Source: a virus. Taken from it: a stretch of DNA of 26,066 bases. The notes under the pieces are model-generated. The model was not told the origin of the DNA. It was given only the letters and a program-made list of their open reading frames with translations, and made no database searches. The translations under genes and the position numbers were made by a program. The stretch lies in IMG/VR virus record IMGVR_UViG_3300014838_000072, positions 1 through 26,066 of that record, one strand, 5' to 3'. Below are positions 380-22,054 of this stretch, in pieces; the first letter of the stretch is position 1, and each line of letters begins with the position of its first letter.

Positions 380-811
380 ATGATTACAATAGAACGCTAC
401 CATGACTTTTCTTATGGCCACCGTGTGGTCGGCCACGAAGGGAAGTGCGCCGGGCTTCATGGGCACAACGGACGCGTGACGTTCACCTGCGTCGCCGAGA
501 AGCTGGACGAGCTTGGGCGGATCGTCGATTTCAGCGTTCTAAAGTCCAAGCTCTGCCAGTGGATAGAGGACAACTGGGACCACAAGATGCTGCTGTGGAG
601 GAAGGACCCGGTGCACGCTATTCTCGGACGTACCGATAACGACAGCATCGTGAACAGTATCCAGCCGGTGTCCTTTAACCCGACCGCCGAGAACCTGGCG
701 CACTATCTTCTCACTACTGTTGCGCCACTGCGGATGCAGGGCACCGGTATCACTGTTATCGCTGTCAAGTTTGAAGAGACGAGGAAATGTTCCGCCGTTG
801 CAACCCTATAA
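380..811 (+). CDS. queD: 6-carboxy-5,6,7,8-tetrahydropterin synthase (QueD)
   Basis: 143 residues, close to the usual size of QueD. The family converts 7,8-dihydroneopterin triphosphate to 6-carboxytetrahydropterin, the second step toward preQ0. Visible active-site elements are H14 in FSYGH, C23 in GKC and the LHGHN motif with H27 and H29; the three histidines are the expected zinc ligands and C23 the expected catalytic cysteine. D67-H68 (WDHKML), the conserved TAENLA stretch near 103 and the glutamates of FEETRK near 131 are also present. The ATG at 380 has a purine-rich RBS (aggcgga) just upstream. It sits with queE 12 bases downstream. In phages these genes usually supply 7-deazaguanines for DNA modification, sometimes for tRNA queuosine; the partners needed to choose (FolE, QueC, DpdA) are not in the window. 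Confidence 0.9.
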   Translation: MITIERYHDFSYGHRVVGHEGKCAGLHGHNGRVTFTCVAEKLDELGRIVDFSVLKSKLCQWIEDNWDHKMLLWRKDPVHAILGRTDNDSIVNSIQPVSFNPTAENLAHYLLTTVAPLRMQGTGITVIAVKFEETRKCSAVATL

Positions 812-823
812 GGAATTGACCCT

Positions 824-1531
824 ATGCTCGGAATGAATCCAATCGACGGCCCCCACACGTTGTCGGAGGATTTTAAGGTCAATTCGATCTGGCGGACGAT
901 ACAAGGCGAGGGACCTTGGTCGGGACTGCCGGCAATTTTCGTGAGATTCAGCGGCTGTTGTTTGCGCTGTACCTGGTGCGATACTTCGTTCGAGACAGGA
1001 ACCTGGCGCAACCTGCCAATGCTCGCTGATGAAATCCATTCGCTGGTTCGATCTACTGGGCACAGGCGGGTCGTGTTCACCGGCGGCGAGCCGATGCTGT
1101 GGCCGCTTGGTGAGCTGATTACGATGCTGCACGACTCCGTCGAAGCGCAGATCGAAACTGCTGGTACCGTTTGGCCCGAGGGACTGGATCGGGTGTTCGA
1201 GCGGGCCAACGTGAGCATCGTCTGCTCGCCAAAAACGCCCAAGGTGCATCCCAAGATCATCCATTACGCAGACGCTTGGAAATACATCATCAGGGTGGGC
1301 TGCGTCGATCCGCAAGACGGCCTGCCGATCGGCAGCACTCAGCGCGGCGTCGACAATCCGACGCAGAAGCTCTACCGGGCGGATACGAGCCCGAACAAGA
1401 TATTCGTGCAGCCCTGCGACGAGGACGATCCGCGCAAGAACGCGGCCAACTTGCAGGAAGCTGTCCTGTCATCGCTACGTTTCGGGTATCGCCTCAGCCT
1501 TCAAATCCATAAGATCGCCGGCGTGCCTTGA
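824..1531 (+). CDS. queE: 7-carboxy-7-deazaguanine synthase (QueE), radical SAM
   Basis: 235 residues. QueE is a radical-SAM enzyme that contracts 6-carboxytetrahydropterin to 7-carboxy-7-deazaguanine (CDG). The N-terminal IWRTIQGEGPWSG segment is typical of QueE, and the CxxxCxxC cluster motif is present as C45, C49 and C52 (GCCLRCTWCD), ligating the 4Fe-4S cluster. The GGEP motif that contacts SAM is at 87-90 (FTGGEP). The C-terminal region contains KIFVQPCDE, like the substrate-pocket region of QueE, and the protein ends at the usual place. An AAGGA RBS lies about 9 bases before the ATG. It directly follows queD, so the two products are consecutive steps of one pathway. The downstream helicase gene begins 1 base after the stop, suggesting cotranscription. 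Confidence 0.9.
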   Translation: MLGMNPIDGPHTLSEDFKVNSIWRTIQGEGPWSGLPAIFVRFSGCCLRCTWCDTSFETGTWRNLPMLADEIHSLVRSTGHRRVVFTGGEPMLWPLGELITMLHDSVEAQIETAGTVWPEGLDRVFERANVSIVCSPKTPKVHPKIIHYADAWKYIIRVGCVDPQDGLPIGSTQRGVDNPTQKLYRADTSPNKIFVQPCDEDDPRKNAANLQEAVLSSLRFGYRLSLQIHKIAGVP

Positions 1532-2933: not shown

Positions 2934-4496
2934 ATGTCCATTGAGCCCGAAGCTATTGAGAGGTTTCTGGCCTGGACTCCGCCTGAGCATCCGGAGTTTA
3001 AAGGCAAGTCGGCGAATGAGCTTTGTGATATCATCTACAGACTGACGGGCGCGCCCTACGTTCACTTTGGTCCCGAGCCGCGACAGCATCAGCTCGAGGG
3101 TCTGGCGTTCGCGTTATGGCAGCGGCGCGCGCTCTTGTATTTCTGGATGCAGCTCGGCAAGACCAAGATCGCACTAGACTGGCTGCGCTACTGCAAGGCG
3201 GCGGGCTGGTCGTGGGGCAAGGGGCTGGTAATTGCGCATTCGCCAGTCGGCGTCGACGTTTGGGACGCGCAGGCCGCTATCCATTCCGCGCTAAGCGTGG
3301 CGACCGTTGTATCCGGTCCAGGCTCGCTTGACAGATTCCTGGGAGCGTGCGAGGGCGGGGCCGATATCGTTATCGTTGCCTGGTCGACGCTCCAGCAGTT
3401 ATTCACGCAAAAGCGGAAGAGCCGCAAAGGCGTATCCAAGCTCTGCCCGATGATGGATGCTGCCCAGCTCGCTGGGGAGTATTTTACCTCCGTCGTGATC
3501 GACGAAATCCATCTAGCTGGCAATCACACAACCAACCGCTTCAATATCGCCTCAGCGCTTGTGCAGAACTGTAACTGTCGGCTGGGACTATCCGGCACGC
3601 CGGTCGGCCGCGATGCTTTCAAGCTGTGGGCATCGACATTCCTGATCGACGGTGGCGAGACGCTGGGACGCAATTATTACTTCTTTGAAGCAGCGTTCGG
3701 GAAAACTCGGCGCAATCCCTTCATGAAGCGGCCGGAGGTTATATTCGACAAGACAAAGCTTCAGATGCTCAAGTCACGGCTGGAAGGCCTTGCAATGAGC
3801 TATGAGCTGTCAGAGGTGCGGAAGCTCAACACGCTGCGCGGACAAGTCGATCTCAAAATGCGTGGAGATCAGCGCGCAGCCTATAACGATATGGTCGACA
3901 AAGTCATCAAGATCAAGGACGGCGATACGCAGGAGATCCATAGCGCGTTTGTGCGGCTGCGGCAGATCGCATCCGGATTTCTGCCGTTTGTTGATAACAG
4001 CGGCGCATCGAGGATCGTCAACTTCGAGAGCAGCGCCAAACTCGAATGGATTTCGTCATTCCTTGAGGAATATGACGGCGTCACGCAGTGCGTAATCTTC
4101 CACGAGTTCGTCCACAGCGGACAGATGATCTGTGAGCGGCTCAAGCGCGCCAAAATATCGCACGCCTGGCTACACGGCGGCACCAAGAATCCTAAACTAG
4201 CTATCGAGTCTTTCCAGAAGGGCCGCGCCCGGTTCCTGGTGGCAAACACAGCTAAGGGCGGCACCTCAATCAATCTGCCGATGGCTGACTACCTGCTTTT
4301 TTACGAATGCCCGACTTCTCCGACGGTTAGGCAACAGGCGGAGTCGCGGCCGCTTGCGCGCGGCGACCGGGTGCTGTTGCTCGACGACCTGGTCTGCTCG
4401 CCTGTCGAGCGCAAGATCCTCGGCTATGTGCAGGAGGGGCGGGACATGCTATCGGTGATCCTGCATAGCCGCTCGCTGCTGCGCGATCAAGATTAG
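2934..4496 (+). CDS. SF2 (SNF2/DEAD-like) helicase
   Basis: 520 residues. An ATP-dependent DNA helicase or translocase of superfamily 2. A Q-motif-like RQHQLEGLAFAL is at 50-61, and Walker A WMQLGKTK at 71-78 matches the phage SNF2-type sequence MGLGKT with a local substitution. Motif II is DEIH at 190-193, motif III is LSGTP at 219-223. The C-terminal half carries motif V-like NTAKGGTSINL and motif VI-like QQAESRPLARGD. Its ATG immediately follows the stop of the DnaB-like gene. Phage SNF2-type helicases are common beside replication or recombination genes; the exact role (fork remodelling, recombination, transcription) cannot be read from sequence. The spelling QLGKT instead of GLGKT is unusual but keeps the catalytic lysine and threonine. 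Confidence 0.85.
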   Translation: MSIEPEAIERFLAWTPPEHPEFKGKSANELCDIIYRLTGAPYVHFGPEPRQHQLEGLAFALWQRRALLYFWMQLGKTKIALDWLRYCKAAGWSWGKGLVIAHSPVGVDVWDAQAAIHSALSVATVVSGPGSLDRFLGACEGGADIVIVAWSTLQQLFTQKRKSRKGVSKLCPMMDAAQLAGEYFTSVVIDEIHLAGNHTTNRFNIASALVQNCNCRLGLSGTPVGRDAFKLWASTFLIDGGETLGRNYYFFEAAFGKTRRNPFMKRPEVIFDKTKLQMLKSRLEGLAMSYELSEVRKLNTLRGQVDLKMRGDQRAAYNDMVDKVIKIKDGDTQEIHSAFVRLRQIASGFLPFVDNSGASRIVNFESSAKLEWISSFLEEYDGVTQCVIFHEFVHSGQMICERLKRAKISHAWLHGGTKNPKLAIESFQKGRARFLVANTAKGGTSINLPMADYLLFYECPTSPTVRQQAESRPLARGDRVLLLDDLVCSPVERKILGYVQEGRDMLSVILHSRSLLRDQD

Positions 4497-4505
4497 AAGT
4501 TTAAC

Positions 4506-4534
4506 TTGCCCTGATGACCGATCTGCGGTATATA
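4506..4534 (+). promoter_or_regulatory. Candidate sigma70-type promoter before the small ORF and UvrD-like gene
   Basis: In the 73-base gap after the SF2 helicase gene, TTGCCC (4506-4511) is separated by 17 bases from TATATA (4529-4534). This is a good match to -35/-10 elements at ideal spacing. Transcription would start near 4541, just upstream of the RBS GGGAG and the GTG start at 4570. Identified by eye only. Confidence 0.5.
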
Positions 4535-4569
4535 CGCATTGACTCAACTCGAGCCCAAGGGAGAACCCA

Positions 4570-4752
4570 GTGGCCATGTCTTCAACGGAAACAAAACAGT
4601 GGGCGCGTGAGATGATCCTTCGCGCGCTTGACACAGAGCTTTTTAACGATGACAGTTTTGTAATGTACTCCCTCGATTTCGATGATCGGGAGGCACTTCT
4701 GAAAGAGCGCAATCGAGTAGCGAAGCTCTTCAAGCTCCCCAGCAAGAAGTAG
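4570..4752 (+). CDS. Small hypothetical phage protein
   Basis: 60 residues, acidic N-terminal half and basic C-terminal end (ERNRVAKLFKLPSKK). I do not recognise a family with certainty; short proteins ending in RVAKLF-like helices occur near phage replication genes. No signal peptide, membrane segment or catalytic motif is visible. The start is taken as GTG at 4570, because a GGGAG RBS lies about 6 bases upstream; an in-frame ATG two codons later (4576) is an alternative. It has its own candidate promoter and ends 8 bases before the UvrD-like helicase gene, so the two are probably co-expressed. Confidence 0.7.
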   Translation: MAMSSTETKQWAREMILRALDTELFNDDSFVMYSLDFDDREALLKERNRVAKLFKLPSKK

Positions 4753-4760
4753 AGAGAGCT

Positions 4761-6512
4761 GTGAATATGATCGCCCGCAGGCATATCGATCCCGCGCTGT
4801 TTACAACGGCGCTGACGCCGGTCCCCACCCTCCCGGATATGCAGCGGCCGGAAAGCGCCGCACCCGCTTCTACTGACGAAAAAACCGGCTGTAATGCCGC
4901 ATCCGCAGCTCCGGCCACCTTCGTATATCAGAAGCGCGACAAGGGCTTCGCACCCAGCCCGCAACAGCAGGCATACTTCGACTGGATCGAGAGCGGCAAG
5001 GGCTCTGCGGTCGTGATCGCGGTGGCCGGCAGCGGCAAAACTACCACGCTTGTGCAAGGTCTCGGCTTGATGGAGGGGCGCGGATTCTTCGGAGCCTACA
5101 ACAAAGCTGCCGCACAAGAGATCAGGGATCGCGTTGAGCAGGAGCGCAGCAAGCGCCGCGATCCCGACTTCGGCAAGAAGTTCTACATCGCGACCGTCCA
5201 CGCCGCTTGCTTCTCAGCGTGGCGGCAGATATATCCGAAAGTCGAGGTCGACGATCGTAAGGTCGGCAATCTGATCACGCGATATGCCGAGGAGATCGGC
5301 GACAATGATGGCGCCGTGATCAAGCGGGCGCTTCCATTCATCAGCAAGATGGTCAGCTTCGGCAAACAATACCTGATCGGCGTCCTGGGCAAGTTCGGCT
5401 TCCGCGACCTCGACAAGTGGTTCGAGTTGGTCGAGCACTTCTCGGCAGACGAAGACCTGCCGGAAGGCGTCGACCTACGTGCTGCGCTAGAATGGGTGAT
5501 TACGATTTCGATGCGCAGCAAGGAGCTATGCCGCGAGATCATCGACTTCAACGACATGATCTACGCGCCGCTCGCGTTCAAAGCGCATTTCTTCCAGAAT
5601 GATTGGGTTTTATTGGATGAATGCCAAGACATCAATCCCGCTCGCCGCGAGGCTGCGCGCCGCATGCTTAAGCCGGGCGGGCGCTTCGTGGGCGTGGGCG
5701 ATGATCGGCAGGCTGTGTATGGATTCACAGGCGCCGGGGCAGATAGTATTGACCGCATCGCGGAGGAATTCGGCTGTATCCGCCTACCGCTGACCGTGTC
5801 CTACCGCTGCCCGAAGACGGTCGTCAACTACGCACATCAGTGGGTGCAGCACATCCAGGCGCATGAGTCAGCACCGGAGGGCGTCGTGCGGGAAGTGAAG
5901 ATTGATAAACTGCCTGCCTCGCCTGATCACACGCCCGACCAGCGTCCTTGGTTTTTACAAGATGCTGTCGGCAATGCAGACGCGATCTTGTGCCGATATA
6001 CCGCTCCGCTGATCAAGACTGCTTACAGCATGATCAAGGAGGGCGTTGCTTGCCGCGTCGAAGGGCGTGATATCGGCCAAGGGCTCGCCATCCTTGCCAA
6101 ACGGTGGAAGGTCAAGACGCTAGACAAGCTGGCCGAGCGACTTGAGCAGCATCGTAAGCGTGAGGTCGAGAAGGCGCGCGCGGCGGGCAGCGAGCGCCGA
6201 GAGCAGGAAGTCGAAGACAAGATCGCGACGCTGTTTGTCATCATCGACCGCTGCCATGCGCTGGGCAAACACACCGTGCTCGATATGCTCGACGAGATCG
6301 CTCTGATCTTTGCAGACAACGTGAAAGGAACTGCTGTGCTTTGCACCGGTCACAAAGCTAAGGGCCGCGAATGGTCCAGGGTATATTGGATATTGCCGAA
6401 GACTGGCGGCCGACGCTCACGCAAGGATTGGGAACAGATACAGGAGTCGAACCTATGTTATGTAATCTGCACCAGAGCTAAGTCCGAACTAGTATTGGTG
6501 CCTGAGCCGTGA
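4761..6512 (+). CDS. UvrD/Rep-like SF1 DNA helicase
   Basis: 583 residues. A superfamily 1A ATP-dependent helicase. The first about 60 residues are a low-complexity Pro/Ala-rich extension. After it come the Q-motif region FAPSPQQQAYF (63-73), Walker A AVAGSGKTT (87-95), Walker B/motif II VLLDECQD, motif III-like GVGDDRQAVYGFTGA, motif IV-like LTVSYRCPKTVV, motif V TGHKAKGREW and motif VI NLCYVICTRAK near the C-terminus. The order and spelling are those of UvrD/Rep. It is shorter than cellular UvrD (about 720), as is usual for phage versions with reduced 1B/2B domains. The start is GTG at 4761 after an AGAGAG sequence; ATG at 4767 is a second candidate. The likely role is unwinding during phage replication or recombination, with the other two helicases of this block. 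Confidence 0.88.
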   Translation: MNMIARRHIDPALFTTALTPVPTLPDMQRPESAAPASTDEKTGCNAASAAPATFVYQKRDKGFAPSPQQQAYFDWIESGKGSAVVIAVAGSGKTTTLVQGLGLMEGRGFFGAYNKAAAQEIRDRVEQERSKRRDPDFGKKFYIATVHAACFSAWRQIYPKVEVDDRKVGNLITRYAEEIGDNDGAVIKRALPFISKMVSFGKQYLIGVLGKFGFRDLDKWFELVEHFSADEDLPEGVDLRAALEWVITISMRSKELCREIIDFNDMIYAPLAFKAHFFQNDWVLLDECQDINPARREAARRMLKPGGRFVGVGDDRQAVYGFTGAGADSIDRIAEEFGCIRLPLTVSYRCPKTVVNYAHQWVQHIQAHESAPEGVVREVKIDKLPASPDHTPDQRPWFLQDAVGNADAILCRYTAPLIKTAYSMIKEGVACRVEGRDIGQGLAILAKRWKVKTLDKLAERLEQHRKREVEKARAAGSERREQEVEDKIATLFVIIDRCHALGKHTVLDMLDEIALIFADNVKGTAVLCTGHKAKGREWSRVYWILPKTGGRRSRKDWEQIQESNLCYVICTRAKSELVLVPEP

Positions 6513-6608
6513 ATGAGACTGAATCTAGACCTTGCGCGTAAGCATGCTCAGGACTTCGATCTGGTGATCGACAGGAAGAAAGAGACGATGAAAGGGATAA
6601 AGATATGA
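6513..6608 (+). CDS. 31-codon mini-ORF carrying the LDLARKHAQDF motif
   Basis: An ATG directly follows the UvrD-like stop codon and opens a 31-codon frame ending TGA at 6606-6608, which overlaps the next gene's ATG at 6605. Residues 5-15 read LDLARKHAQDFDL. The same motif occurs in the N-terminal domain of the Ala-rich proteins encoded at 7352 (ALDFARKHAQDF) and 7951 (LTLDLARKHAQDFDF). At the DNA level 6525-6560 matches 8053-8088 in 35 of 36 bases. It could be a detached remnant of that gene family, or a short coupling ORF. No function is assigned. Confidence 0.45.
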   Translation: MRLNLDLARKHAQDFDLVIDRKKETMKGIKI

Positions 6609-6850
6609 TCGCTACATCGCTAGAACTGCGTGCGCTCGCCGGTAACCTAGCGGCGGCGGGACGCGGTCTGTCGGCCCGCGAAGTTGTTAGTCTGGCGCGC
6701 GATCTGACTGACGCCGCGTGCAAATGGCGCAGACAAGAGCGTGCTCTTGACGAGCTGGTGGCCGATGCTATGCAGGATGCGCGGTTGATCGATGCGGCCG
6801 AGGATGATGGCAAGGTTATCGTGCTGCGTCGGCCCCCGCCGACGCCATAA
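6605..6850 (+). CDS. Hypothetical protein, predicted helical
   Basis: 81 residues, Ala/Arg/Asp-rich and apparently mostly alpha-helical (LARDLTDAACKWRRQERALDELVADAMQDA), ending in the Pro-rich tail LRRPPPTP. No known domain recognised; no membrane segment or signal peptide. The ATG at 6605 has a strong RBS region (aaaggga) and overlaps the stop of the preceding mini-ORF by 4 bases. Its last codons lie in the first copy of a 29-bp direct repeat that recurs at the end of the next gene. Confidence 0.65.
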   Translation: MIATSLELRALAGNLAAAGRGLSAREVVSLARDLTDAACKWRRQERALDELVADAMQDARLIDAAEDDGKVIVLRRPPPTP

Positions 6851-6862
6851 AATCCTCTTGAC
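6834..6862 (+). repeat. 29-bp direct repeat, copy 1
   Basis: Positions 6834-6862 match 7275-7303 in 28 of 29 bases (mismatch at 6845/7286). The 441-bp unit between the repeat starts contains exactly one gene, the first Ala-rich ORF with its promoter. The copy spans the stop of the preceding ORF and runs into the TTGAC of the candidate promoter. Confidence 0.75.
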
Positions 6863-6885
6863 TGACTCGCGTCGCGCCTTATACT
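6858..6885 (+). promoter_or_regulatory. Candidate strong sigma70-type promoter for the Ala-rich genes
   Basis: TTGACT at 6858-6863, a 16-base spacer, then TATACT at 6880-6885. Five of six bases match the consensus in each hexamer. The predicted start is near 6892, about 20 bases before the ATG at 6913. Identified by eye. Confidence 0.6.
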
Positions 6886-6912
6886 GAAACCCTGATACCG
6901 GATTACCCGCGT

Positions 6913-7302
6913 ATGACCGACTCGCACGTTCCCCTTAACCGCACCGCATATGAGGCTGCTCGCGTCATATATGATGCCGCCAGGGCCTCCACCGGTGCCA
7001 CCTACCGCGCCGCCGTGGCCCGCGCCGACGACGCATACGCGGCCACCATGGCCTCCATCGACGACGCATACGCGACCGCTGTGGCCTCCGCCGCCACCTG
7101 CGTCGCCCATTCCGACGCCATCTTTGTCTGCGCTGCTGCCCGAGCCGCCGACATCTGCGCCTCCGCCGCCGCCCTCGCCGCTTACGAAGTCACCCTGACC
7201 TCCATCTACGCCGCATACAATGCCGGCATGGCCTCCGCCTATGCCGCCTACGCCGCATACGATGTCGACACGATCCCCGCCGACGTCATAAAATCCTCTT
7301 GA
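6913..7302 (+). CDS. Ala-rich hendecad-repeat protein 1
   Basis: 129 residues, very Ala-rich, with recurrent Tyr. From about residue 12 onward the sequence falls into roughly 11-residue units such as RADDAYAATMA and SIDDAYATAVA, consistent with a long amphipathic or right-handed coiled-coil helix. It lacks the N-terminal LARKHAQDF domain of the two paralogues that follow. Alanine is encoded mostly by GCC. No recognised family and no catalytic motif. It has its own near-consensus promoter but only a weak RBS (GGA about 12 bases upstream). Its last codons lie in the second copy of a 29-bp direct repeat, so it looks like a cassette inserted or duplicated between repeats. Confidence 0.6.
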   Translation: MTDSHVPLNRTAYEAARVIYDAARASTGATYRAAVARADDAYAATMASIDDAYATAVASAATCVAHSDAIFVCAAARAADICASAAALAAYEVTLTSIYAAYNAGMASAYAAYAAYDVDTIPADVIKSS

Positions 7303-7303
7303 C
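7275..7303 (+). repeat. 29-bp direct repeat, copy 2
   Basis: Second copy of the repeat at 6834-6862 (28/29 identical). It covers the last codons and stop of Ala-rich gene 1 and again ends in TTGAC (TTGACC at 7299-7304). A -10 element at suitable distance is poor here (ACATTC at 7322), so promoter activity of this copy is doubtful. Confidence 0.7.
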
Positions 7304-7331
7304 CGGCTCACCCTTTTACGCACATTCAGCG

Positions 7332-7351
7332 CAGCAAGGAGAATCCGTCAC
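7332..7351 (+). promoter_or_regulatory. Duplicated leader with strong RBS, copy 1
   Basis: The 20 bases immediately before the ATG at 7352, containing AAGGAGA, match the 20 bases before the ATG at 7951 (7931-7950) in 19 of 20 positions. Identical leaders on paralogous genes indicate that gene and translation start were duplicated together, and predict strong translation of both. Confidence 0.7.
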
Positions 7352-7885
7352 ATGTCTGCTAGTGAAATCGCTCTCGCCTTGGTCCGCGAAGGCCAAACGG
7401 CTCGTTTCGAGAAATTTTTCGGAGAACCAGTCCCACTGACCGAGGCGCTCGCGCTTGATTTTGCACGTAAGCATGCACAGGACTTTCGCTTTGGCTGGGA
7501 GGTGCAGGACTTTGACTTTGGCTGGGGGGCGCAGCATCTGCTTTCGCCCTCCGCCCGCGCCGCATACCGCGCCACCTTCGCCTCCGCCGACGCTGCATTC
7601 GATGCCGCCGTGGTCTCCGCTAACGCCGAGTACAGTGCCACCTTCGCCTCCGTCGACGCTGCATTCGCTGCCGCCATGGTCTCCGCTAACGCCTCGTACC
7701 GTGCCCCCTTCGCCTCCGCCGACGCTGCATTCGATGCCGCCATGCTTCCCATCCGCGCCGCGTACCGTGCCACCTTCGCCTCCGCCGACGCTGCATTCGC
7801 TGCCGCCATGGTCTCCGCCCACGCCGTGCATGACGCTGCTAAGGTAGTGGCTTTTGCCCGTGCTTATTGCTGGTCTGCCCCATAG
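7352..7885 (+). CDS. Ala-rich hendecad-repeat protein 2
   Basis: 177 residues in two parts. Residues 1-64 form an N-terminal domain with FFGEPVPLTEAL, LDFARKHAQDF and two DFxFGW boxes (44-49 and 53-58, a small internal duplication). Residues 65-164 are perfect 11-residue repeats with an aromatic residue at position 7, alternating two types: ASADAAFDAAM and VSANASYRAPF. The alternation makes a 22-residue, 66-bp super-repeat. The pattern suggests a long amphipathic helix or right-handed coiled coil. No known family recognised; not DNA-binding in character, as Lys/Arg are few. Strong AAGGAGA RBS. It is followed by a paralogue with the same domain order. Function unknown. Confidence 0.7.
   Translation: MSASEIALALVREGQTARFEKFFGEPVPLTEALALDFARKHAQDFRFGWEVQDFDFGWGAQHLLSPSARAAYRATFASADAAFDAAVVSANAEYSATFASVDAAFAAAMVSANASYRAPFASADAAFDAAMLPIRAAYRATFASADAAFAAAMVSAHAVHDAAKVVAFARAYCWSAP
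7571..7834 (+). repeat. Four tandem 66-bp coding repeats
   Basis: Units begin at 7571, 7637, 7703 and 7769, each starting G(C)CACCTTCGCCTCC or a close variant and encoding 22 residues (two hendecads). All are in frame within the Ala-rich protein 2 gene. The units differ by point changes, showing recent expansion of an array capable of slippage. Confidence 0.8.
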
Positions 7886-7930
7886 CGGGCTGTCGCACGA
7901 CTAGACTTTCTGCAGCCCCATAACTCAACA

Positions 7931-7950
7931 CAGCAAGGAGAATTCGTCAC
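7931..7950 (+). promoter_or_regulatory. Duplicated leader with strong RBS, copy 2
   Basis: Identical in 19 of 20 positions to 7332-7351; contains AAGGAG at ideal distance from the ATG at 7951. Confidence 0.7.
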
Positions 7951-8388
7951 ATGCCCTCCCAGATCACTCTGACCCAGCTTCGCAAAGCCGGCGCCGACAA
8001 AAGACAAACGGATCTTTTTAAGGAGCTGTTCGGAGAATCAGTCACACTGACTCTAGACCTTGCGCGCAAGCATGCTCAGGACTTCGATTTCGGCTGGATA
8101 GCGGGGAATCTGCTTGTTTCGCCCTCCGCCCGCGCCGTTTTCGATGCCGCCATAGTCTCTGCCGTCGCCGCATACAAGATAGCTATGGTCTCCGCTAGCG
8201 CCTCATATGATGCCGCCATGAACTTCGCCATCGCTGCATACCGCACCGCCACAATCTCCGCCAACGTCACATACAATACTGCCATGGCCTCCGCTAGCGC
8301 CGCGCACCTGGTCGATGTAGCCTCCGCCCGCGCCGCATACAATGCCGCTGTGGCAGTGGCTTTTGCCTGCGCCTATTTGTCCGAATAA
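7951..8388 (+). CDS. Ala-rich hendecad-repeat protein 3
   Basis: 145 residues, a paralogue of protein 2. The N-terminal domain (1-56) has LFGESVTL, LDLARKHAQDFDFGW and LLVSPSARA. From 58 to 134 it is built of 11-residue units with Tyr or Phe at position 7 in most, for example VSAVAAYKIAM and VSASASYDAAM; the DNA repeat is more degenerate than in protein 2. The C-terminus AVAFACAYLSE resembles the end of protein 2 (VVAFARAYCWS). The start is supported by the duplicated RBS leader. It is the last gene of the + strand block, ending 51 bases before the convergent - strand block. Function unknown. Confidence 0.7.
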   Translation: MPSQITLTQLRKAGADKRQTDLFKELFGESVTLTLDLARKHAQDFDFGWIAGNLLVSPSARAVFDAAIVSAVAAYKIAMVSASASYDAAMNFAIAAYRTATISANVTYNTAMASASAAHLVDVASARAAYNAAVAVAFACAYLSE

Positions 8389-8439
8389 CCACCTCCCGCC
8401 GCGCACTTACCCGGATAGAAACCAAGGATAGCACGCATC

Positions 8440-8751
8440 TCAGTACCTCACTGCCACGAAGGCGTGCCCGGCCGTCGCCGCTACTGCCGATACCGCAGTG
8501 GAGATCGGCCCTGATACCCGGTAGGAGCCGCCCGGCTGGAGCGGAAATGACGTGGCAGAGCCGGCTACCGCAGTGGTCACGATATCGATGTAGAGCGTTT
8601 CCGTGGCCGTTGGCGGGTTGGCGATGTCGGCCACGTTTGCGATGCTGTTGGCGGGAAACACCACCACGGCGGTTCCCCCGGTCACGATGGAGGTAGCGGC
8701 GCCGACAACTGGTGTGCTTCGGACTGCGAAGGGTGGTGAAAGAGCGGACAT
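8440..8751 (-). CDS. Small Ala/Val-rich hypothetical protein, possible virion component
   Basis: 103 residues. Composition and pattern (alternating Val/Thr/Ile, ETLYIDIVTTAV, LQPGGSYRVSGPISTAVSAVA, GHAFVAVRY) suggest a small beta-sandwich like those of minor phage virion or decoration proteins, but I do not recognise a family. No signal peptide or membrane segment. A TAGGAG RBS lies about 9 bases before the ATG. It is the last gene of the late block; the 51-base gap to the convergent Ala-rich gene has no obvious hairpin terminator. Confidence 0.6.
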   Translation of the reverse strand: MSALSPPFAVRSTPVVGAATSIVTGGTAVVVFPANSIANVADIANPPTATETLYIDIVTTAVAGSATSFPLQPGGSYRVSGPISTAVSAVAATAGHAFVAVRY

Positions 8752-8832
8752 GAAGATGGGCTCCTACTTGGTCTTTTTGGCGGGTTTCGCCGGCATCTGC
8801 TGCTGCGCCACCGTCGAGGGACAGGATGCGCG

Positions 8833-9594: not shown

Positions 9595-10020
9595 TTACTC
9601 CACGATCTGCCAGTCGTCGGCGAGTATGTCACTCTGGCTGGCGATCCACGGCACCACCTTGCCGTCCACCGTCTTCATATCGATGTGTGGGCAGTAACTT
9701 ATCTCTGTGCCTTCGGGGTAGATGCCGAGCAACGGAGGTCGGTTCACCCTGAAAATGCTGCCAGGCACCAGGAACAGGAACATCCCCTTCCCGTTCCAGC
9801 CGGCGCGCGCGACGCGACACCCTTCCTTGAGGGCGACGACGGCGTGGCCGAACGACATCGCGTCGAGCGGCTGGTAGGCTGCCTCGAACACATCCTTGGG
9901 TGACCAGGAAATGTAACCATCAGCGTACTTGACCGCGTAGCCTGGTTGCGGATACGGACCGGCCTTACTGCTCCACCATGCGGTGACGCGTTTCGTGCCG
10001 TAATAGTCTTGGGTCATCAT
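9595..10020 (-). CDS. Tad2-like (DUF2829) anti-Thoeris protein with N-terminal fused module
   Basis: 141 residues. Residues about 55-141 match the DUF2829/Tad2 family: MSFGHAVVALKEG, RAGWNGKGMFLFLVPGS, RVNRPPLLG, GTEISYCPHIDMKT, VPWIASQSDILADDW. Tad2 proteins bind and sequester the cyclic ADP-ribose-type signal (gcADPR) made by ThsB and so block Thoeris defence; this is known for other members. Residues 4-52 form a separate module (YGTKRVTAWW, GYAVKYADGYISWSPKDVFEAAYQP) that occurs on its own in many phage proteins. Two ATG codons begin the gene (10020, 10017) behind GGGGGA. It lies between the lipoprotein and papain-like genes in the late block. Whether the host encodes Thoeris is unknown, and DUF2829 members without tested activity are frequent. 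Confidence 0.82.
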   Translation of the reverse strand: MMTQDYYGTKRVTAWWSSKAGPYPQPGYAVKYADGYISWSPKDVFEAAYQPLDAMSFGHAVVALKEGCRVARAGWNGKGMFLFLVPGSIFRVNRPPLLGIYPEGTEISYCPHIDMKTVDGKVVPWIASQSDILADDWQIVE

Positions 10021-11800: not shown

Positions 11801-14095
11801 TTACTTGAACTCCATCTGCCCGGACCCTGCGATCCAGTCGCAGGGGTTGCATCCCGACGCCCCCACAACGCCGATGTAGATGCCACCATGCGTCGTGTCG
11901 GCGCCCACAGTCGGGGTAGCAACACTAGCGAGCGCGCCAATATGTTTCAGTTCTGTAATGGTAGCCGCAACAAGCGGCGTCGTAGAGGCAGCATTGGCCC
12001 CTTGCCCAAGGACTAAACCAGTCACGCTCCATTCCGCAAAATCCGTAATGTTGGCGCGACTTTTCGCCATGATGACAAAAGGAGGAAAGGCCGTTATCTG
12101 TTGGGCTACCATGTTCATTACATTATTAGAGGATGCCGCGGCTCCGGTGCCCGTGAGCTGCGTCATTGTCGTGCCATCTGTCGTCGTGCCTATTAAATAC
12201 ATCGCGAAGCGGTTCATAGCGTCGCCAATGGACACGAATTGATTTCCAGCGTAGCACATCCCGAGAACATTATGATCATAGGCACGGTTGCCCCAACAAG
12301 CATTGTTTCCTGCGCCGACTGATACCTGGTTGCCGAAAGCAAATGAGTTAGTTCCGGATGCCGCTGAACTCGTGCCGCCGGATGCCGAGTTTGACCCGGC
12401 TTGAGTATTGCTGGTGCCCGAGATATTCCCCGAAGAGGATGCTGTAGAAATAGGAATATATGTGGTATCATTTGTCGGCGCCACCGTATAGGGAATTCTT
12501 GTCGTGACGCCAAATGCCGCCGTCGCCCAATATGTTGAACCGCATAGTGTGCCATCATCATAGGCTAAATAGTTTACTTGCCCCTGACCAACGAAGTAGT
12601 CACCGGTAAATCCCTCTCCACAGGTATTTGACAAGTAAATGTTCGGAAACATCCCCGCCTGTATTATGCTGTTATTGGTAAATCTAGCCCCGATAAAAGC
12701 CTGCGGAGACACGACTCCTTGACTCTGGATAAGAATGCCGAATTTTAGGTTGCTATCTATAGACCCCCCGATAAACGAGGATGCGTCCGATCCGGCGGGC
12801 GACATGCTAATGCCGATATAATTGTCAAACACCCTCGTGCTATCGAAGGTGTTTGCTGCTGTCGGCACGTTAACCCCTACCACAATTGCTTGAATAGTGC
12901 CGCCAGAGGTAAATGACCCGGCAAACTGGGAACCTGCCAGATCAATGTTATAGGTATCTACAACCGTGCCTTGCCATACGCCAACCGCATTTGGCACTCC
13001 ACCAGAATTGAGCACCAGAACTTGCGCCGCTGTCCCCGTCACGCCAAAGTTGTGCGCTTGAGTCGTGGTAACGCGGATCAATCCTGAGCCATTGTTGGCA
13101 ACGCCGGATATTCCGAACAGCGGCACCACTTCACCCCCAGACGTATAGGTGCCAGTGAAAGTCGAGCTGTTCTCAGTAAAGTGCGTGCCATCGATGACAG
13201 TAACGGTAGGCATGCCATTCGCTGCGGTTACACCGCCAACCTGCGATACCTCGGCCTGCATGCCCGTCGATAAGCCGTGCGACGTCGCGGTGGTGATCTC
13301 GATCAGGCCACCGCCGCTGGTGACATTCGAAACATTAGCGCCAAGAAGGGTCGAGCCCATGATCTGGCTACTGTTGAAAAACCAGTCACCAGAATTGAGA
13401 GTGACACCATTCCGGAATGGGTGGATCATATTAGATGAATTAAATTGGCCCGCGCTGCAATTTGTTCCGATCCACAGGTTGTCACGCCCTGCATTCTTAA
13501 GAACAACACGAGAAAAATTGAAAGACCCTGCGTATCCGGCCCCGCCATTGTTCGGGCACTGCACAACGTCACTGCCGTGATATTGCCCGTCGAATGTAAT
13601 ATCCTCAAAACTCGGTTCGGCCTGATCGCCGTATCCGGGGCTGCCGAGGATCGTGAGCAGCGGGCCGGTTGCCCCGGACGACAAGAGAAAACGGCTCAAA
13701 CCAGATCCAGCGCCTCGGAAGTGCCCAGCGAACTCAGTAGACTGAACGGTGTAGGTAAGCCCATCTACCTGATAGGTGCCGCTCGGAACAAAGCATGCGT
13801 GAGGCGTCCATGGCGCCAGCCCCTCGCAAGCGTTGATAAAATTCTGAGCCGCAACCTGGCTGTCCGTCGCTCCGGTCGGATCGGCGCCAAAGTCGTCAAT
13901 CAGGTTCAACTCACGGCTAACCCGAGCACCGAGCGAACTGGCCACGCTCGCACCGGTCGCAGTGACAAGCGCGCCAGAAGCCGTGGCGCCGTTGAGCGTC
14001 GTAGCTGGAATAAACGGCGCAGGCGCCAGCTGCGCCCACACAGTGCCAGCCGGCGCCAGAAGCCCAAGAACAAGAACGAGAAAAAGTTTGCGCAT
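11801..14095 (-). CDS. Tailspike 2: pectate-lyase-like beta-helix protein with signal peptide
   Basis: About 764 residues from the ATG at 14095. That start is chosen because GGAG lies 6 bases upstream; in-frame ATGs at 14098 and 14107 are alternatives. MRKLFLVLVLGLLAPAGTVWA is a typical Sec signal peptide. NLIDDFGADPTGATDSQVAAQNFINAC is the entry of the Pectate_lyase_3-type right-handed beta helix. Two tandem copies of a small beta domain (12881-13336; TTATSHGLSTG, NGMPTVTVIDGTHF and a diverged second copy) resemble the E1-FCCH-like domain of phage proteins. Repeats like GTNSFAFGNQVSVGAGNN resemble trimeric adhesin head repeats. The C-terminal module ADTTHGGIYIGVVGASG matches that of tailspike 1. 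Expected role: receptor binding and possibly polysaccharide cleavage; catalytic residues were not identified. Confidence 0.78.
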   Translation of the reverse strand: MRKLFLVLVLGLLAPAGTVWAQLAPAPFIPATTLNGATASGALVTATGASVASSLGARVSRELNLIDDFGADPTGATDSQVAAQNFINACEGLAPWTPHACFVPSGTYQVDGLTYTVQSTEFAGHFRGAGSGLSRFLLSSGATGPLLTILGSPGYGDQAEPSFEDITFDGQYHGSDVVQCPNNGGAGYAGSFNFSRVVLKNAGRDNLWIGTNCSAGQFNSSNMIHPFRNGVTLNSGDWFFNSSQIMGSTLLGANVSNVTSGGGLIEITTATSHGLSTGMQAEVSQVGGVTAANGMPTVTVIDGTHFTENSSTFTGTYTSGGEVVPLFGISGVANNGSGLIRVTTTQAHNFGVTGTAAQVLVLNSGGVPNAVGVWQGTVVDTYNIDLAGSQFAGSFTSGGTIQAIVVGVNVPTAANTFDSTRVFDNYIGISMSPAGSDASSFIGGSIDSNLKFGILIQSQGVVSPQAFIGARFTNNSIIQAGMFPNIYLSNTCGEGFTGDYFVGQGQVNYLAYDDGTLCGSTYWATAAFGVTTRIPYTVAPTNDTTYIPISTASSSGNISGTSNTQAGSNSASGGTSSAASGTNSFAFGNQVSVGAGNNACWGNRAYDHNVLGMCYAGNQFVSIGDAMNRFAMYLIGTTTDGTTMTQLTGTGAAASSNNVMNMVAQQITAFPPFVIMAKSRANITDFAEWSVTGLVLGQGANAASTTPLVAATITELKHIGALASVATPTVGADTTHGGIYIGVVGASGCNPCDWIAGSGQMEFK
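12881..13336 (-). other. Tandem E1-FCCH-like beta domains in tailspike 2
   Basis: Two consecutive domains of about 73-77 residues, each with a G-x-I-x-(I/V)-T-T-x-x-x-H-x-(L/F) start, a middle valine-rich strand and an end F-x-G-(T/S)-(Y/F)-T-S-G-G. The repeated ending TSGG is the clearest marker. They look like the small phage domain annotated as ubiquitin-activating E1 FCCH-like. Confidence 0.6.
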
Positions 14096-14137
14096 CATAA
14101 TCTCCATATTAGTCCATGTCGCGTATTCGCGTCCATT

Positions 14138-16462
14138 CTATTGGCCTTCAGTCGATTGCGGCACCGCTCGCCACGTCAGCGTGTAGCCGGCCACCCCGGT
14201 AACACCGATGTCCACGCCGCCGTTGGTCGTGTCGGCGACCGCCGTAACCGATGTTGCGGCGAGTCCCGCACCGGATAGAGTGGTGTCACACTGCGGCATG
14301 GTAATCGTGGGGCTGCCGATGCGAGCGGTCAGCGATGCGCTCGAACCGCGCTTCATCAGCAAGTTCTCGACGAACCACTCGCAGGCATAGTTGCCAGAGG
14401 AATTGTATGCCAACACAACGATGCGCCCGAACGCATAAGCCCCGTTGTTCGGCAGATTGAGGATGTTGATGGTGTTGGGGGCGCCGCCGTCCGCCGTGAG
14501 CGTCGCCGAAGCCGCGCCTGTCGTGGAGGCACGCAGCGGTTGCCAACAAATCTGGTAATCGCCTGCCGAGGCAATCAATCCGTTCGCGTAGCACAATCTT
14601 CCATAATCCGCGCGATCTGTGGTCTGGCCGCCGAGAGCAGCCGATCTCTCGCCACTGACGGAGACGGAGTTGCCAATCGCCAGAGCCTCGAGACCCGCCG
14701 CGTAGGCGCTGGTGCCGATCGCCACGGCGCCGATGTTCGATGCGGTCGAATCGCATCCGGCGGTAAATGAGTTCTGGCCGGAAGCGACCTGGATCGCATT
14801 CGTCCGGGCGCATGTCTGCACGTCCACCGCGTTGGCGCCGAGCTGGTTGCCGGTCGCCGTGGTGTTCTGGTGCGGGTTCAGCGCGAACGAGCCATTATCT
14901 CCATAATAAGGGCCAAATCCGCGTTCGGGGATGCCGAGCCGCACGACGCCGGCCTGGGTCGGCGCGTCCGCCGTTACCAGCGGTGTGCTGCCAAGATAGC
15001 CGCCCTCATAGGTAAGATTTTGTCCCGATGCGACATAGAGTTGCGCCGAAGACCCGCCATCGGTCTTGTTGCCGACCAGCGCCAGGCCGCCGGCGGTGAC
15101 ACTGACGTGATTCAGGAAATTACCCCATTCCTGACAATTCGATGCTGTATGTGTAATACCGGCCGTATTGACCAGAATGCCGGTGTGCTGCGCCGATGCC
15201 TTGCAATCGGTCAGGCTCGCGTTGGTGGTCGTGCCCTCGAGGTCGATGCCGACGGCCCCCCAGTCGCCCTGGGGCGCGTCATTGTCCGCGCCGATACCGT
15301 GCAGCACATTGTGGTTGGAATTGGTTATCTGAAAACCAGTCTGGTAACCATAGCTGAAATCATCCTCGAAAATACCGTGATCATCGTTCTGAAGAACCTG
15401 GTAGGCGATGCCGTTGCGCAGGTTTGTTGTCGAATTGACCGTGCCCCCTGTTCCGGTTCCGGAGCCAGAGGAGACCGGTATTTGGATTGTCGTGGAGTTG
15501 ATGACGGTGACCGGCCAGTAGCCATTGAGTTGTGTTTGAGAGTTTCCGGCCACGATAACCGCCTGGCCGGTCGTATAGCCGTGCGGCGAGGCGGTGACGA
15601 TCTGCCAATAACCGCCGACAATCGAGGCCGAGCTGATCGCCACCCTGATATCGGAGACCGATCCGCCGACCGTCAGGAACGGCCAGAAGTGAGCACGGGC
15701 GACGTGGCTGATGTCGAACGACTGCTGGATGCGAATGCCGTTGGTGTCGTCGCCGGAAACGTCGATCACCTTGAGCCTGTCGTTGCCGTTGCTGTCGATG
15801 GCGCGGTTGAAGCCAAGAACGAGAAGGTCCTTCAGTGTCACGTCATGCGCGTTGACCGATCCGTTCCCTGGACCGACAGTAATCCCGGTTCCCGCCATGT
15901 TGGCAATCTGGGTATAGGCGTCGCTGTCGGTGACGACGAGGATGATACCCTGGCGGCGCACAATCAGTCCGTCCAGGGTCGAACCCTGATTCATCTGGAT
16001 AGTGTAGCCGGACGCGACGATGAGCGACCCTGGCGCTGACGTGTAATTGTCGCCGACGATGCGCCCTGGCCGTCCCCAGGGACCCTGCACGGTCAGTCCT
16101 GTTGGGACGACCAGATTGGCCGAGCCGATCAGGTACTGGTCGGTTCCGATGACAAATCGCTGCGCCCCGGCCGCCGCTGCGATGTTCATCCAGGACTGCA
16201 ACGCAGCGGTCGCGTCGGTTGTCCCGGTGGGATCGGCGCCGCTGTCCCGAGCATAATATACGTCCGTGGCCCGCGCCGCGAGCGTCCGCGCGGTCGTGCC
16301 GCCCATGGCGGTGACGGTCGCGGCGGAGACATTGGTGCCGCTGAGCGAACCGCCCGTGATCGTTCCGCCCAGTGGACCGCCTGAAATGGGAACGGGGGTC
16401 GGCGCCTGACCGGCTGCAACCAGCGGCCAGAGCATCAACGCAATAACTATGGTCTTGTTCAT
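14138..16462 (-). CDS. Tailspike 1: pectate-lyase-like beta-helix protein with signal peptide
   Basis: 774 residues from the ATG at 16462, which overlaps the upstream stop as ATGA and follows GGCAGG; the longer frame from 16480 is less likely. MNKTIVIALMLWPLVAAGQA is a Sec-type signal peptide. DSGADPTGTTDATAALQSW begins a Pectate_lyase_3-like beta helix. The helix is interrupted at 15431-15634 by an E1-FCCH-like beta domain (SPHGYTTGQAVIVAG, NGYWPVTVINSTTIQI). The distal part has adhesin-head-like repeats (GAVAIGTSAYAAGLEALAIGNS) and ends in ADTTNGGVDIGVTGVAG, homologous to tailspike 2. Likely a trimeric receptor-binding or depolymerase spike at the baseplate periphery. The two spikes share layout but differ in the central region, as expected for host-range determinants. 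Confidence 0.8.
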   Translation of the reverse strand: MNKTIVIALMLWPLVAAGQAPTPVPISGGPLGGTITGGSLSGTNVSAATVTAMGGTTARTLAARATDVYYARDSGADPTGTTDATAALQSWMNIAAAAGAQRFVIGTDQYLIGSANLVVPTGLTVQGPWGRPGRIVGDNYTSAPGSLIVASGYTIQMNQGSTLDGLIVRRQGIILVVTDSDAYTQIANMAGTGITVGPGNGSVNAHDVTLKDLLVLGFNRAIDSNGNDRLKVIDVSGDDTNGIRIQQSFDISHVARAHFWPFLTVGGSVSDIRVAISSASIVGGYWQIVTASPHGYTTGQAVIVAGNSQTQLNGYWPVTVINSTTIQIPVSSGSGTGTGGTVNSTTNLRNGIAYQVLQNDDHGIFEDDFSYGYQTGFQITNSNHNVLHGIGADNDAPQGDWGAVGIDLEGTTTNASLTDCKASAQHTGILVNTAGITHTASNCQEWGNFLNHVSVTAGGLALVGNKTDGGSSAQLYVASGQNLTYEGGYLGSTPLVTADAPTQAGVVRLGIPERGFGPYYGDNGSFALNPHQNTTATGNQLGANAVDVQTCARTNAIQVASGQNSFTAGCDSTASNIGAVAIGTSAYAAGLEALAIGNSVSVSGERSAALGGQTTDRADYGRLCYANGLIASAGDYQICWQPLRASTTGAASATLTADGGAPNTINILNLPNNGAYAFGRIVVLAYNSSGNYACEWFVENLLMKRGSSASLTARIGSPTITMPQCDTTLSGAGLAATSVTAVADTTNGGVDIGVTGVAGYTLTWRAVPQSTEGQ

Positions 16463-17175
16463 CCTGCCCTGGCCCACCACTGTGTAGATGCGGAATTTGT
16501 CGAAAACGCTACACCACCGCCACCTGCGACAATCACGAAAGGCTGATTGACGCCGAGCGCGTTGATCTGTGCCCCGACCGGGGGAAGGATTGGCGCGTTG
16601 TTCACCAGGTCCGCGTCCTGCACAAAGATCGTGCCGACAACTCCAGTTGGAAGGATGGCGCTTGTCCCTGGCGGCGCGCGGGCAATGACGTTGGTCTGCG
16701 CGGCGATTAACAGCGAAGGAGCGGTCAGCACCAGGCCGGTCGCGGGAGGACCGGCGAGTTGTTGCGGGAAGATGTAGGGCAGTTCATTGTTCGTCCATGT
16801 GACCGGAGTGCCGTAACCAGGAACGGGCGCTGGCGGAAGCGGGTAAACGGGCGGGAGCGCGTCAGCACAGCTCACCAGCTGCTTGACAGCGTACTGCCAA
16901 ATACGGCCAGACACGCCAATAATAGTGATCTGGTATCGGTAGACGCGGCCTGGCACGCCTCCTGTAAACTGCGCGGTCAGCACATACCCGTCTACACTGA
17001 GACTGAGCGCTACCCGCTCGCCCATCCCACTCGGCTCAATGGCAAGCAAGGCTGATGCGGCGGCATCACCCCGAGCCTGGACCGCATAGAGGAAATCGGT
17101 GTAGTCTAGATTAGCGCCAGGCAGCGCGGGGGGCCACCACTTGTCGCCGGGAGGGCCAACAGATGCGCACGACAT
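16459..17175 (-). CDS. Tail fibre-associated protein
   Basis: 238 residues. Residues about 25-105 (DYTDFLYAVQARGD, SVDGYVLTAQFTGGVPGRVYRYQI, IIGVSGRIWQYAVKQLVS) look like a small beta domain found in phage fibre or adaptor proteins. A Pro-rich linker (PPVYPLPPAPVPGYGTP) and a C-terminal beta-rich part (PILPPVGAQINALGVNQPFVIVAGGG) follow. No signal peptide. It lies between a glycine-rich fibre gene and tailspike 1 and overlaps the latter by ATGA, so a role in fibre attachment or as a short fibre is inferred. No family assigned with certainty. Confidence 0.6.
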   Translation of the reverse strand: MSCASVGPPGDKWWPPALPGANLDYTDFLYAVQARGDAAASALLAIEPSGMGERVALSLSVDGYVLTAQFTGGVPGRVYRYQITIIGVSGRIWQYAVKQLVSCADALPPVYPLPPAPVPGYGTPVTWTNNELPYIFPQQLAGPPATGLVLTAPSLLIAAQTNVIARAPPGTSAILPTGVVGTIFVQDADLVNNAPILPPVGAQINALGVNQPFVIVAGGGGVAFSTNSASTQWWARAG

Positions 17176-20626: not shown

Positions 20627-22054
20627 CTAGCCCTGCACGACCGTGATCGAGGCGGCGGAGCAGGAGAAGTAGCTCTCCGGATCGCCGAAGATAGTTTCTG
20701 TCCCGACTCCCGGCGCAGTAGTAATGCCGTTGATCGCCACCGAGAAGATCAAGACGGTCAACAAGTTCTGCGGCACCTGACCGGCTACCGCAGCAATGAA
20801 AGTCGAGTTCAACTCCAGCACGTTGATGGGCGCGCCGACCGGAAGGGAGTTGATGTATGCGGCAAGTGCTGGTTGAGCAAGCGCCGCAATGCCTATAGGC
20901 GAGACGAAGTTGGAGGATGATGTCTGCCACGTCACCGTCATCGATACGGTCTGCGCTGGCGGCAGCACGATCGGAATTGTATAGGAGTCAGGATACTGAC
21001 TGATCGTCACGCTGGTGTTACGGAAGTTGGGCGTGACGACGCCGCCGCTCACATATGCGCTAAAGGCGCTGGTATTGACATTGACCTCGAAGGTCGTCTC
21101 GGTCAAGACCGTGATCGTATAGGTGCCGTTGTAGGCAGATGGCGTTGCGCCGGCGATGGCGACAGCCTGACCGGTGGCGTAGCCATGGTTTAGTGTCGTC
21201 GTCACTGCGCCGTTGGCGGCAGCGGTAAAAGTGGAGACACCCAGCGTCGATCCGACCAAAGTTGACACGTCCGGGATCGCCTGAAAAATCGCCGCACCGA
21301 TTGCATAAGGATCACCAGTGCCGCCAACAATGATCTCCCATTTGCCGGCTGCAGGTGTGCGGATAGAGATAAGCTGCGCCTGCACACCCGATATGGCTTG
21401 GAGTAGCGTCCGCAGATAGAATGGCATGCCGGTCGAGGCGACAAGACCTGCCCGGAGAACCTGCGCGCGGAATTGCCCCTCGGTCTGCGCCGCGCCGCCG
21501 GGCGTGCCTGCCAGCGGATTAGTGACGGTGAGCGCGTATGCGCTTGGCACCGAGGTAACAAGCTGCGTCACGGTGTTCGCGGGAACCGCCCAGGAGCCGG
21601 GCTGTGTCGCCACGAAATAGATTGGCGCGCTGCTGTTGCCGGTTTGCGTGATCCCGCCATCCGGCGTTACGTATTGGTTGGTGCCGTCCGACACTGTAAA
21701 CCCCGGCGCGATGATAATACCTGGGGCCGAGCCCGTGAAGACACAATAGACCGCAGTGTTGTTGGCCGGTGCAATAGTAGAACCCTGTCCGAGGTATATC
21801 TGAGCGAGCTGAACCAGAAGCCACGCATTTGCGCCGTAGGGCGTCAGACTGCCGATGGTCTCAGTAACTGCCTGGTCACACAGCACGACCGCGGCAGTAT
21901 CGGTGGACGACACATCGTCGATCAGGCCCGCCGGCAGGACCGTGTACCCAGGCGACAAGGCTGCGGCGCCAGCGATGATCTCAGCGTTGATCGTAGCCGG
22001 CGGCGTATTGGTGCGACCGGCTGCGGTCAGGATAATTGGGATGCTGTCACTCAT
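20627..22054 (-). CDS. Baseplate J-like protein with inserted beta domain
   Basis: 475 residues. Typical J-like features: an N-terminal helical part, FVATQPGSWAVPANTVTQLVT near 147-167, NPLAGTPGGAAQTEGQFRAQVLRAG (179-203) and ISGVQAQLISIRTPAAGKWEIIVGG. J-like proteins form the wedges around the central hub. Residues 272-343 (21026-21241) are an E1-FCCH-like beta domain (HGYATGQAVAIAG, NGTYTITVLTETTFEV) not found in standard J proteins, closely similar to domains in both tailspikes. The C-terminal part (QTSSSNFVSPIGIAALAQPALAAYINSLPVGAPINVLEL) resumes the J fold. The start overlaps the preceding gene as ATGA. Confidence 0.82.
   Translation of the reverse strand: MSDSIPIILTAAGRTNTPPATINAEIIAGAAALSPGYTVLPAGLIDDVSSTDTAAVVLCDQAVTETIGSLTPYGANAWLLVQLAQIYLGQGSTIAPANNTAVYCVFTGSAPGIIIAPGFTVSDGTNQYVTPDGGITQTGNSSAPIYFVATQPGSWAVPANTVTQLVTSVPSAYALTVTNPLAGTPGGAAQTEGQFRAQVLRAGLVASTGMPFYLRTLLQAISGVQAQLISIRTPAAGKWEIIVGGTGDPYAIGAAIFQAIPDVSTLVGSTLGVSTFTAAANGAVTTTLNHGYATGQAVAIAGATPSAYNGTYTITVLTETTFEVNVNTSAFSAYVSGGVVTPNFRNTSVTISQYPDSYTIPIVLPPAQTVSMTVTWQTSSSNFVSPIGIAALAQPALAAYINSLPVGAPINVLELNSTFIAAVAGQVPQNLLTVLIFSVAINGITTAPGVGTETIFGDPESYFSCSAASITVVQG
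21026..21241 (-). other. E1-FCCH-like beta domain inside baseplate J
   Basis: Residues 272-343 of the J-like protein: VTTTLNHGYATGQAVAIAG, YNGTYTITVLTETTFEV, and AYVSGGVVTPN. Flanks match J; the insert matches the tailspike domains. Confidence 0.6.

Follow-up and report, generated by a model that had tools for sequence, protein, structure and literature searches.

The IMG/VR virus record IMGVR_UViG_3300014838_000072 comprises 26,066 bases, and the whole of this stretch is referred to here as the window. Its + strand carries a block of DNA-metabolism genes (a methyltransferase fragment, QueD, QueE and helicases, among them DnaB-like and UvrD-like ones), while the remaining genes lie on the - strand from about position 8,440 onward. 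Where the two blocks meet, after the DnaB-like and UvrD-like helicases, we observed three tandem + strand genes whose products are built from 11-residue repeats (hendecads), located at 6913-7302 (129 residues), 7352-7885 (177 residues) and 7951-8388 (145 residues). A sequence-only reading had placed three consecutive genes for Ala-rich 11-residue-repeat proteins here, and the open reading frames agree with it. The 6913 protein consists of hendecads only and has no head. The 7352 protein has a head (residues ~1-65), about nine hendecads and the C-terminal cap VAFARAY, and the head part of its gene contains a 27-nt internal duplication at 7478-7531. The 7951 protein likewise has a head (residues 4-54), a rod of repeats (58-144) and the cap VAFACAY. 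The two N-terminal domains are homologous, as had been proposed, with a pN of 0.225 and a pS of 0.544 over 51 codons.

Self-similarity at a lag of 11 residues is 0.29, 0.31 and 0.39 in the three repeat regions, higher than in shuffles of each sequence (p<=5e-5; p<5e-5 for the 6913 gene) and higher than at any other lag between 3 and 21. The 7352 protein gives an even stronger signal (0.54) for a 22-residue double unit. The periodicity, which had been called strict, thus holds in all three genes but is loose in 6913.

The surrounding DNA bears several further duplications. A 29-nt leader with an AAGGAG ribosome-binding site precedes the 7352 gene (7326-7354, +) and is 90% identical to that of the 7951 gene (7925-7953, +), as the sequence-only reading had noticed. 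A 35-nt repeat at 6834-6868 (+), at the 3' end of an 81-residue open reading frame (6605-6850), is 91% identical to a second copy at 7275-7309 (+), at the 3' end of the 6913 gene. Upstream lies a 31-residue open reading frame at 6513-6605 (+), MRLNLDLARKHAQDFDLVIDRKKETMKGIKI, which contains the third occurrence of the motif LDLARKHAQDF and in which 43 nt are 95% identical to 8046-8088. It is scored below significance by the head profile described below (E=2) and is probably a truncated remnant of a head gene, so that the window holds two full head copies and one head fragment. A promoter had also been proposed; the sequence TTGACT-16-TATACT at 6858-6885 (+) does match the consensus at 10 of 12 positions with a spacer of 16, but the region contains two such sites where 0.8 are expected by chance, and the site is therefore weak and not evidence by itself.

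Other genes in the vicinity deserve mention. The QueD and QueE homologs lie at 380-1531 (+), and a longer copy of the window phage carries a QueC-like open reading frame, recognized by eye (L202, 4073-4768, +); together these genes likely specify 7-deazaguanine DNA modification. A protein resembling Thoeris anti-defence 2 (Tad2) is encoded at 9595-10020 (-; Pfam PF11195, E=3e-26), 1.2 kb from the array, and its gene does not occur in the fetched stretch of the relative phage L011. Large - strand proteins at 11801-14107, 14138-16480 and 20627-22054 gave weak matches only (E1_FCCH, phrog_9998).

Relatives of the window proteins

Neither the three proteins nor the family described below matched a Pfam, NCBIfam or PHROGs model above cut-off, in keeping with the earlier statement that no known family could be recognized; the analogy to LEA and type I antifreeze proteins gained nothing, as neither Pfam nor NCBIfam gave a match above cut-off. 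Where repeat segments gave weak matches to Pfam or PHROGs, these are taken as composition effects. Searches with tblastn yielded no match at E<=0.01 among 50,697 phage records and nothing useful among phages and plasmids, and a three-record match at E=3 later turned out to consist of genuine head-only relatives. Direct searches recovered only near-identical phage copies (L004 and L005, 99.95%), and a DNA pattern for ARKHAQDF found only such copies and one chance match in an unrelated gene (L007). An AYDAAMA pattern retrieved mostly unrelated contigs and was discarded as a family finder.

The family was reached with a consensus-like probe modeled on a type of hypothetical phage protein that has a similar layout. 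It identified 24 IMG/VR loci, of which ~17, on ~15 contigs, have a head of the window type. Since such a probe is only a lead, the link to the family rests on a separate profile HMM of the head, built from 13 probe-found viruses with the window sequences left out and searched against 3775 targets (every stop-to-stop frame in the window and its relatives, plus 1,500 shuffles). This external profile finds the 7951 protein with E=3.6e-19 and the 7352 protein with E=1.5e-10, compared with 0.74 for the best shuffle. The family alignment has the same layout throughout: a head, a variable number of 11-mers that begin in register directly after it, and a short C-terminal cap (xAxFAxxY). The head is an alpha/beta domain of ~55 residues with the consensus ITLxxLxxxxACxxQVxLFxxxFGxSVxxTxxLxxxxAxxFDWxWAAxxLL. 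On this profile and alignment evidence, the window proteins belong to an uncharacterized phage-specific family. We found no description of such head and hendecad proteins in the literature.

AlphaFold2, supplied with family alignments, predicts for the 7951 protein (pLDDT 93.7) a compact strand-helix-helix-strand-helix-helix head at residues 4-54 and one unbroken helix at 58-144. For a relative, L020 (pLDDT 92.3), it predicts the same head and a helix at 55-174 that runs on without a break, although most units contain a Pro. AlphaFold2 has a tendency to lengthen helices in repetitive sequence. Sequence and fold searches of the PDB matched nothing, and the best hit in a viral fold library was below significance (E=0.36).

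These predictions support the long helix proposed in the sequence-only reading; its amphipathic character fared less well, since the window rods show little amphipathicity (p = 0.03, 0.07 and 0.89 for the hydrophobic moment). This bears on the idea that the rod is a membrane- or lipid-binding helix that lies on the host envelope in the manner of apolipoproteins, alpha-synuclein and perilipins. The 11-mers and the Pro at position 2 fit such a helix, the hydrophobic moment is significant in five relatives (L020, L022, L023, L024 and L031), and L033 touches Pfam Apolipoprotein at an E of 0.007 that is far below cut-off. However, the moment of the window rods is low (p 0.03-0.89), E6 and R9 are conserved, charge varies among relatives, and no Pfam Apolipoprotein match exists in the window. 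We thus consider this explanation quite improbable, and the host-membrane binding suggested earlier is not favored for the window rods.

A period of 11 residues over three helical turns is that of a right-handed coiled coil. The window proteins combine this period with a continuous helix, predicted for the monomer. Known right-handed hendecad coiled coils, such as the tetrabrachion stalk and the undecads of NadA3 (PMC6191539), share the period and the long helix; they differ in that no sequence match is found and in that the window family has a small head, tandem paralogs and a diversifying stripe.

Distribution and mosaicism of the arrays

The family is seen on ~15 IMG/VR contigs, often as 2-9 tandem copies. 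Nine head copies are present on one 55-kb contig, four on that of L015, three each on those of L022 and L017, and two on several others. The tandem paralogs that had marked these genes as candidates for undescribed phage accessory proteins are thus a hallmark of the family, with 2-9 copies in most relatives. In cell genomes the family is almost absent (2 of 635): the probe gave three loci in the genome collection, in a Rhizorhabdus MAG, Rhodanobacter lindaniclasticus and a Patescibacteria MAG contig, and no further member was found in the other genomes of the 635, which were searched in two groups. Genes near L020 and L040 function in replication and recombination, and neighbors in relatives encode DnaB, a RecE-like exonuclease, a replication initiator and a helicase/primase, which places the family in early DNA-metabolism regions.

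The helicase region of L011 is 90% identical in DNA to that of the window, and homology between the two breaks exactly at the hendecad genes and head fragments (6512/6605 and 6827/8830). The 31-residue open reading frame at 6513-6605 exactly fills the gap between two L011-homologous blocks, of which one ends at 6512 and the other restarts at 6605, and the stop at 6827 lies near the first copy of the 35-nt repeat. At the corresponding site L011 instead encodes a phrog_18326 protein (L011:9540-10211). It possesses a separate hendecad cluster with two head-and-rod genes, four hendecad-only genes similar to 6913 (L186:1-414, 451-804, 2071-2400 and 2994-3296) and one pentapeptide-repeat gene.

Pentapeptide-repeat genes adjoin arrays in four contigs from at least two phage groups (for example, L186 1233-1754 and L017 1744-2454), and one precedes the array in L016-L018. 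The L186 stretch also encodes a Dam-like methylase, recognized by eye (3724-4839, +), with the internal tandem repeat GINRQRPHLSSAGQGIKRKLPHLGDAGRGI..., which is another repeat expansion in the same relative-phage genome as the hendecad arrays.

In L033/L037, L034, L035/L036 and L038 the hendecads are joined to N-terminal domains of other kinds. These domains read MCQGFGCIVT... in L033, L034 and L037 and MDAQAFAKWLND... in L035 and L036, and that of L038 is phrog_18326-like. Because the N-terminal domains differ, the hendecad rod is, as judged from these fusions, a portable module. The phrog_18326 or "Imm-5-like" phage proteins, one of which occupies the site of the window array in L011, share with the family an N-terminal helix with an AC/PC motif and an Ala-rich tail; comparison of their head with the family head by hhalign, with small alignments, gave no significant match (probabilities 1.6 and 10.9, E 0.003-0.03). 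A different arrangement is found in the Planktothrix phage Pag-Yong1, in which three tandem genes annotated as hypothetical (UMO76048-UMO76050; L014 2642-3668) encode the head, with E values of about 2e-5 to 5e-5, and the cap AVFAxLY. These proteins are without hendecads, and a short linker joins head and cap, which suggests that the rod may be an expanded linker between the two.

Substitution patterns in the repeat units

In the relatives, the unit register is A1 P2 A3 W4 A5 E6 Y7 E8 R9 V10 R11, and our codon dataset draws on 19 contigs with 33 arrays in total. Within any one array the units have nearly the same DNA sequence except at positions 2, 4, 8 and 11. At positions 4, 8 and 11, pN is 0.291 against a pS of 0.078 over the unit, a ratio of 3.73 whose bootstrap range of 2.86-5.50 was taken over contigs, unit pairs being non-independent and the L016 and L017 contigs coming from related phages. 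At these positions pN exceeds pS in all 19 contigs. The ratio is 0.35 at positions 3, 5, 6, 9 and 10, where the array finder itself, by demanding partly conserved residues at 5, 6, 7, 9 and 10, lowers pN, as it does not at 2, 4, 8 and 11. With 98.2 degrees per residue, the helical angles of positions 11, 4 and 8 are 262, 295 and 327 degrees, so that the three form a single stripe along the helix; position 2 lies off this stripe, at 98 degrees, and the constant face is made up of A3, A5, E6, Y7, R9 and V10.

Taken over the whole unit, pN/pS reaches 1.72 in the coding frame but only 0.54 and 0.81 when the two remaining + frames are read; the value of 1.72 recurs in one antisense frame, whose middle codon positions coincide with those of the coding frame. 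Codon bias is unlikely to be the cause of the low pS, since the codons for conserved residues differ between genomes and are nearly single within an array. The heads, by comparison, have a dN/dS of 0.14-0.6 in most within-contig pairs, with weaker constraint in L031 (0.68) and one L027 pair (0.90). Heads are thus kept by purifying selection, and the stripe carries a nonsynonymous excess. All four combinations of two variable positions were observed in 84 of 219 testable pairs, in many arrays, as expected from recombination or repeated mutation. Mutagenesis of the DGR type was rejected, as the changes are not limited to A.

The codon data bear on two explanations in which the rod protein matters little. 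In the first, slippage and recombination expand the 33-bp units, the rod amounts to tolerated ballast whose open face drifts, and any function that exists resides in the head. Copy number does vary among closely related phages: those of L016, L017 and L018 are ~96% identical yet have different arrays. Pentapeptide-repeat genes, which are also expanding repeats, lie beside the arrays in four contigs, and Borg extrachromosomal elements are known to contain fast-evolving in-frame tandem repeats (PMC9879509). However, relaxed constraint predicts a pN/pS of ~1, whereas the observed ratio is 3.7, the excess is seen in every one of the 19 contigs and the conserved face gives 0.35. The Borg repeats, moreover, are reported to be disordered (PMC9879509), whereas the rods are predicted to be helical with selection focused on one face. 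Neutral ballast is thus disfavored by the codon data, and we judge it unlikely.

In the second, the genes matter mainly as DNA, with their repeats acting as recombination points for swapping accessory genes and the proteins being secondary. The window and L011 do differ exactly at the hendecad genes and head fragments (6513-6604 and 6828-8829), and the duplicated leaders and 35-nt repeats would provide such points. Yet purifying selection on the head and frame-specific diversification of the rod demand selection at the protein level; already disfavored by the codon data, this explanation seems to us highly improbable.

The diversification signal comes from the relatives, and the window's own rods are old repeats. 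Their units have diverged (pS 0.33-0.41), and within-array pN/pS is about 1 for this reason. The window differs from a near-identical phage by nine SNPs in 16.6 kb, two of which lie in the 7951 rod (+ strand): a T/A change at 8285 (M112K, rod position 11; differs from L004 and L005) and a T/A change at 8343 (N131K, rod position 8; differs from L005). The chance of at least two SNPs falling in codons 4, 8 and 11 of both rods is ~0.003, for a position set taken from other phages and a test conceived after the SNPs had been seen.

A possible binding role for the rod

When repeats are uniform in DNA apart from a few codons on one helix face, that face is usually one on which selection favors change. 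Given that the head is conserved and one face of the rod changes under selection, an interaction surface directed toward a changing partner is suggested. The explanation that we favor, tentatively and at somewhat below even confidence, is an accessory protein of the early region in which a head is carried on a rod, one face of which selection and recombination have diversified for binding to a variable target. The head would have a constant job, such as dimerization or attachment to some conserved component of phage or host. The rod would be one long alpha-helix of 11-residue units, each of three turns, followed by the short cap, and recombination between 33-bp units would lengthen, shorten or reshuffle it, with whole genes duplicating in tandem. 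Amino acid-changing mutations would alter the 4/8/11 stripe and position 2, and another face of the units would stay constant. The rod would thereby be a modular binding surface whose stripe touches a varying or evolving partner, such as a host defence protein, a toxin or a competing phage, and tandem paralogs would widen the binding repertoire. Counting against this view, the arrays of L019-L021 are identical in three samples, which means that change is not rapid at that scale. Given the early-region neighbors and the nearby Tad2-like gene, early expression may be presumed and an anti-defence or inter-phage role is plausible; closeness to a single Tad2-like gene is weak evidence for an anti-defence role.

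TAL effectors, PPR proteins and PUF proteins are likewise strings of almost identical units, which recombination shuffles and whose differences are confined to a few set positions. The rod is predicted to be one straight helix rather than a superhelix of hairpins, and the likeness is an analogy only.

The main rival is a self-assembling structural rod, in which the proteins form right-handed hendecad coiled coils with themselves or with paralogs, variable residues set the register and block mispairing, and the product is an adjustable spacer or filament. The one-sided variation could in this way keep oligomers in register instead of recognizing a target. The 11/3 periodicity, a conserved face with Y7 and V10 and the continuous predicted helix all fit, and tandem paralogs would require orthogonal pairing. 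The stripe, however, freely mixes W, L, R, Q, E, K and T within one array, beyond what register would need, and hendecad-only and head-only relatives occur. Self-assembly is thus possible, but we think it rather doubtful.

Returning to the binding rod, its strongest form is a new class of single-helix modular recognition protein, whose 4/8/11 stripe would owe its diversity to recombination and positive selection and would be directed at variable proteins of the host or of competitors. We put this forward as a speculative possibility that is itself on the unlikely side. Neither the wide spread of the family nor the diversifying rod face was visible from the window sequence alone. With them, what appeared to be an oddity of one phage becomes an uncharacterized phage-specific protein family with a clear, testable signature: repeats homogenized in DNA, with changes at a few fixed codons that are always on the same helix face. 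If that face is a recognition surface, the rod would be an unusually simple and evolvable binding scaffold and would point to an undiscovered phage-host or phage-phage conflict. Should the new class be real, these phages would possess a set of binding rods that is able to evolve and that tandem copies of the genes enlarge further.
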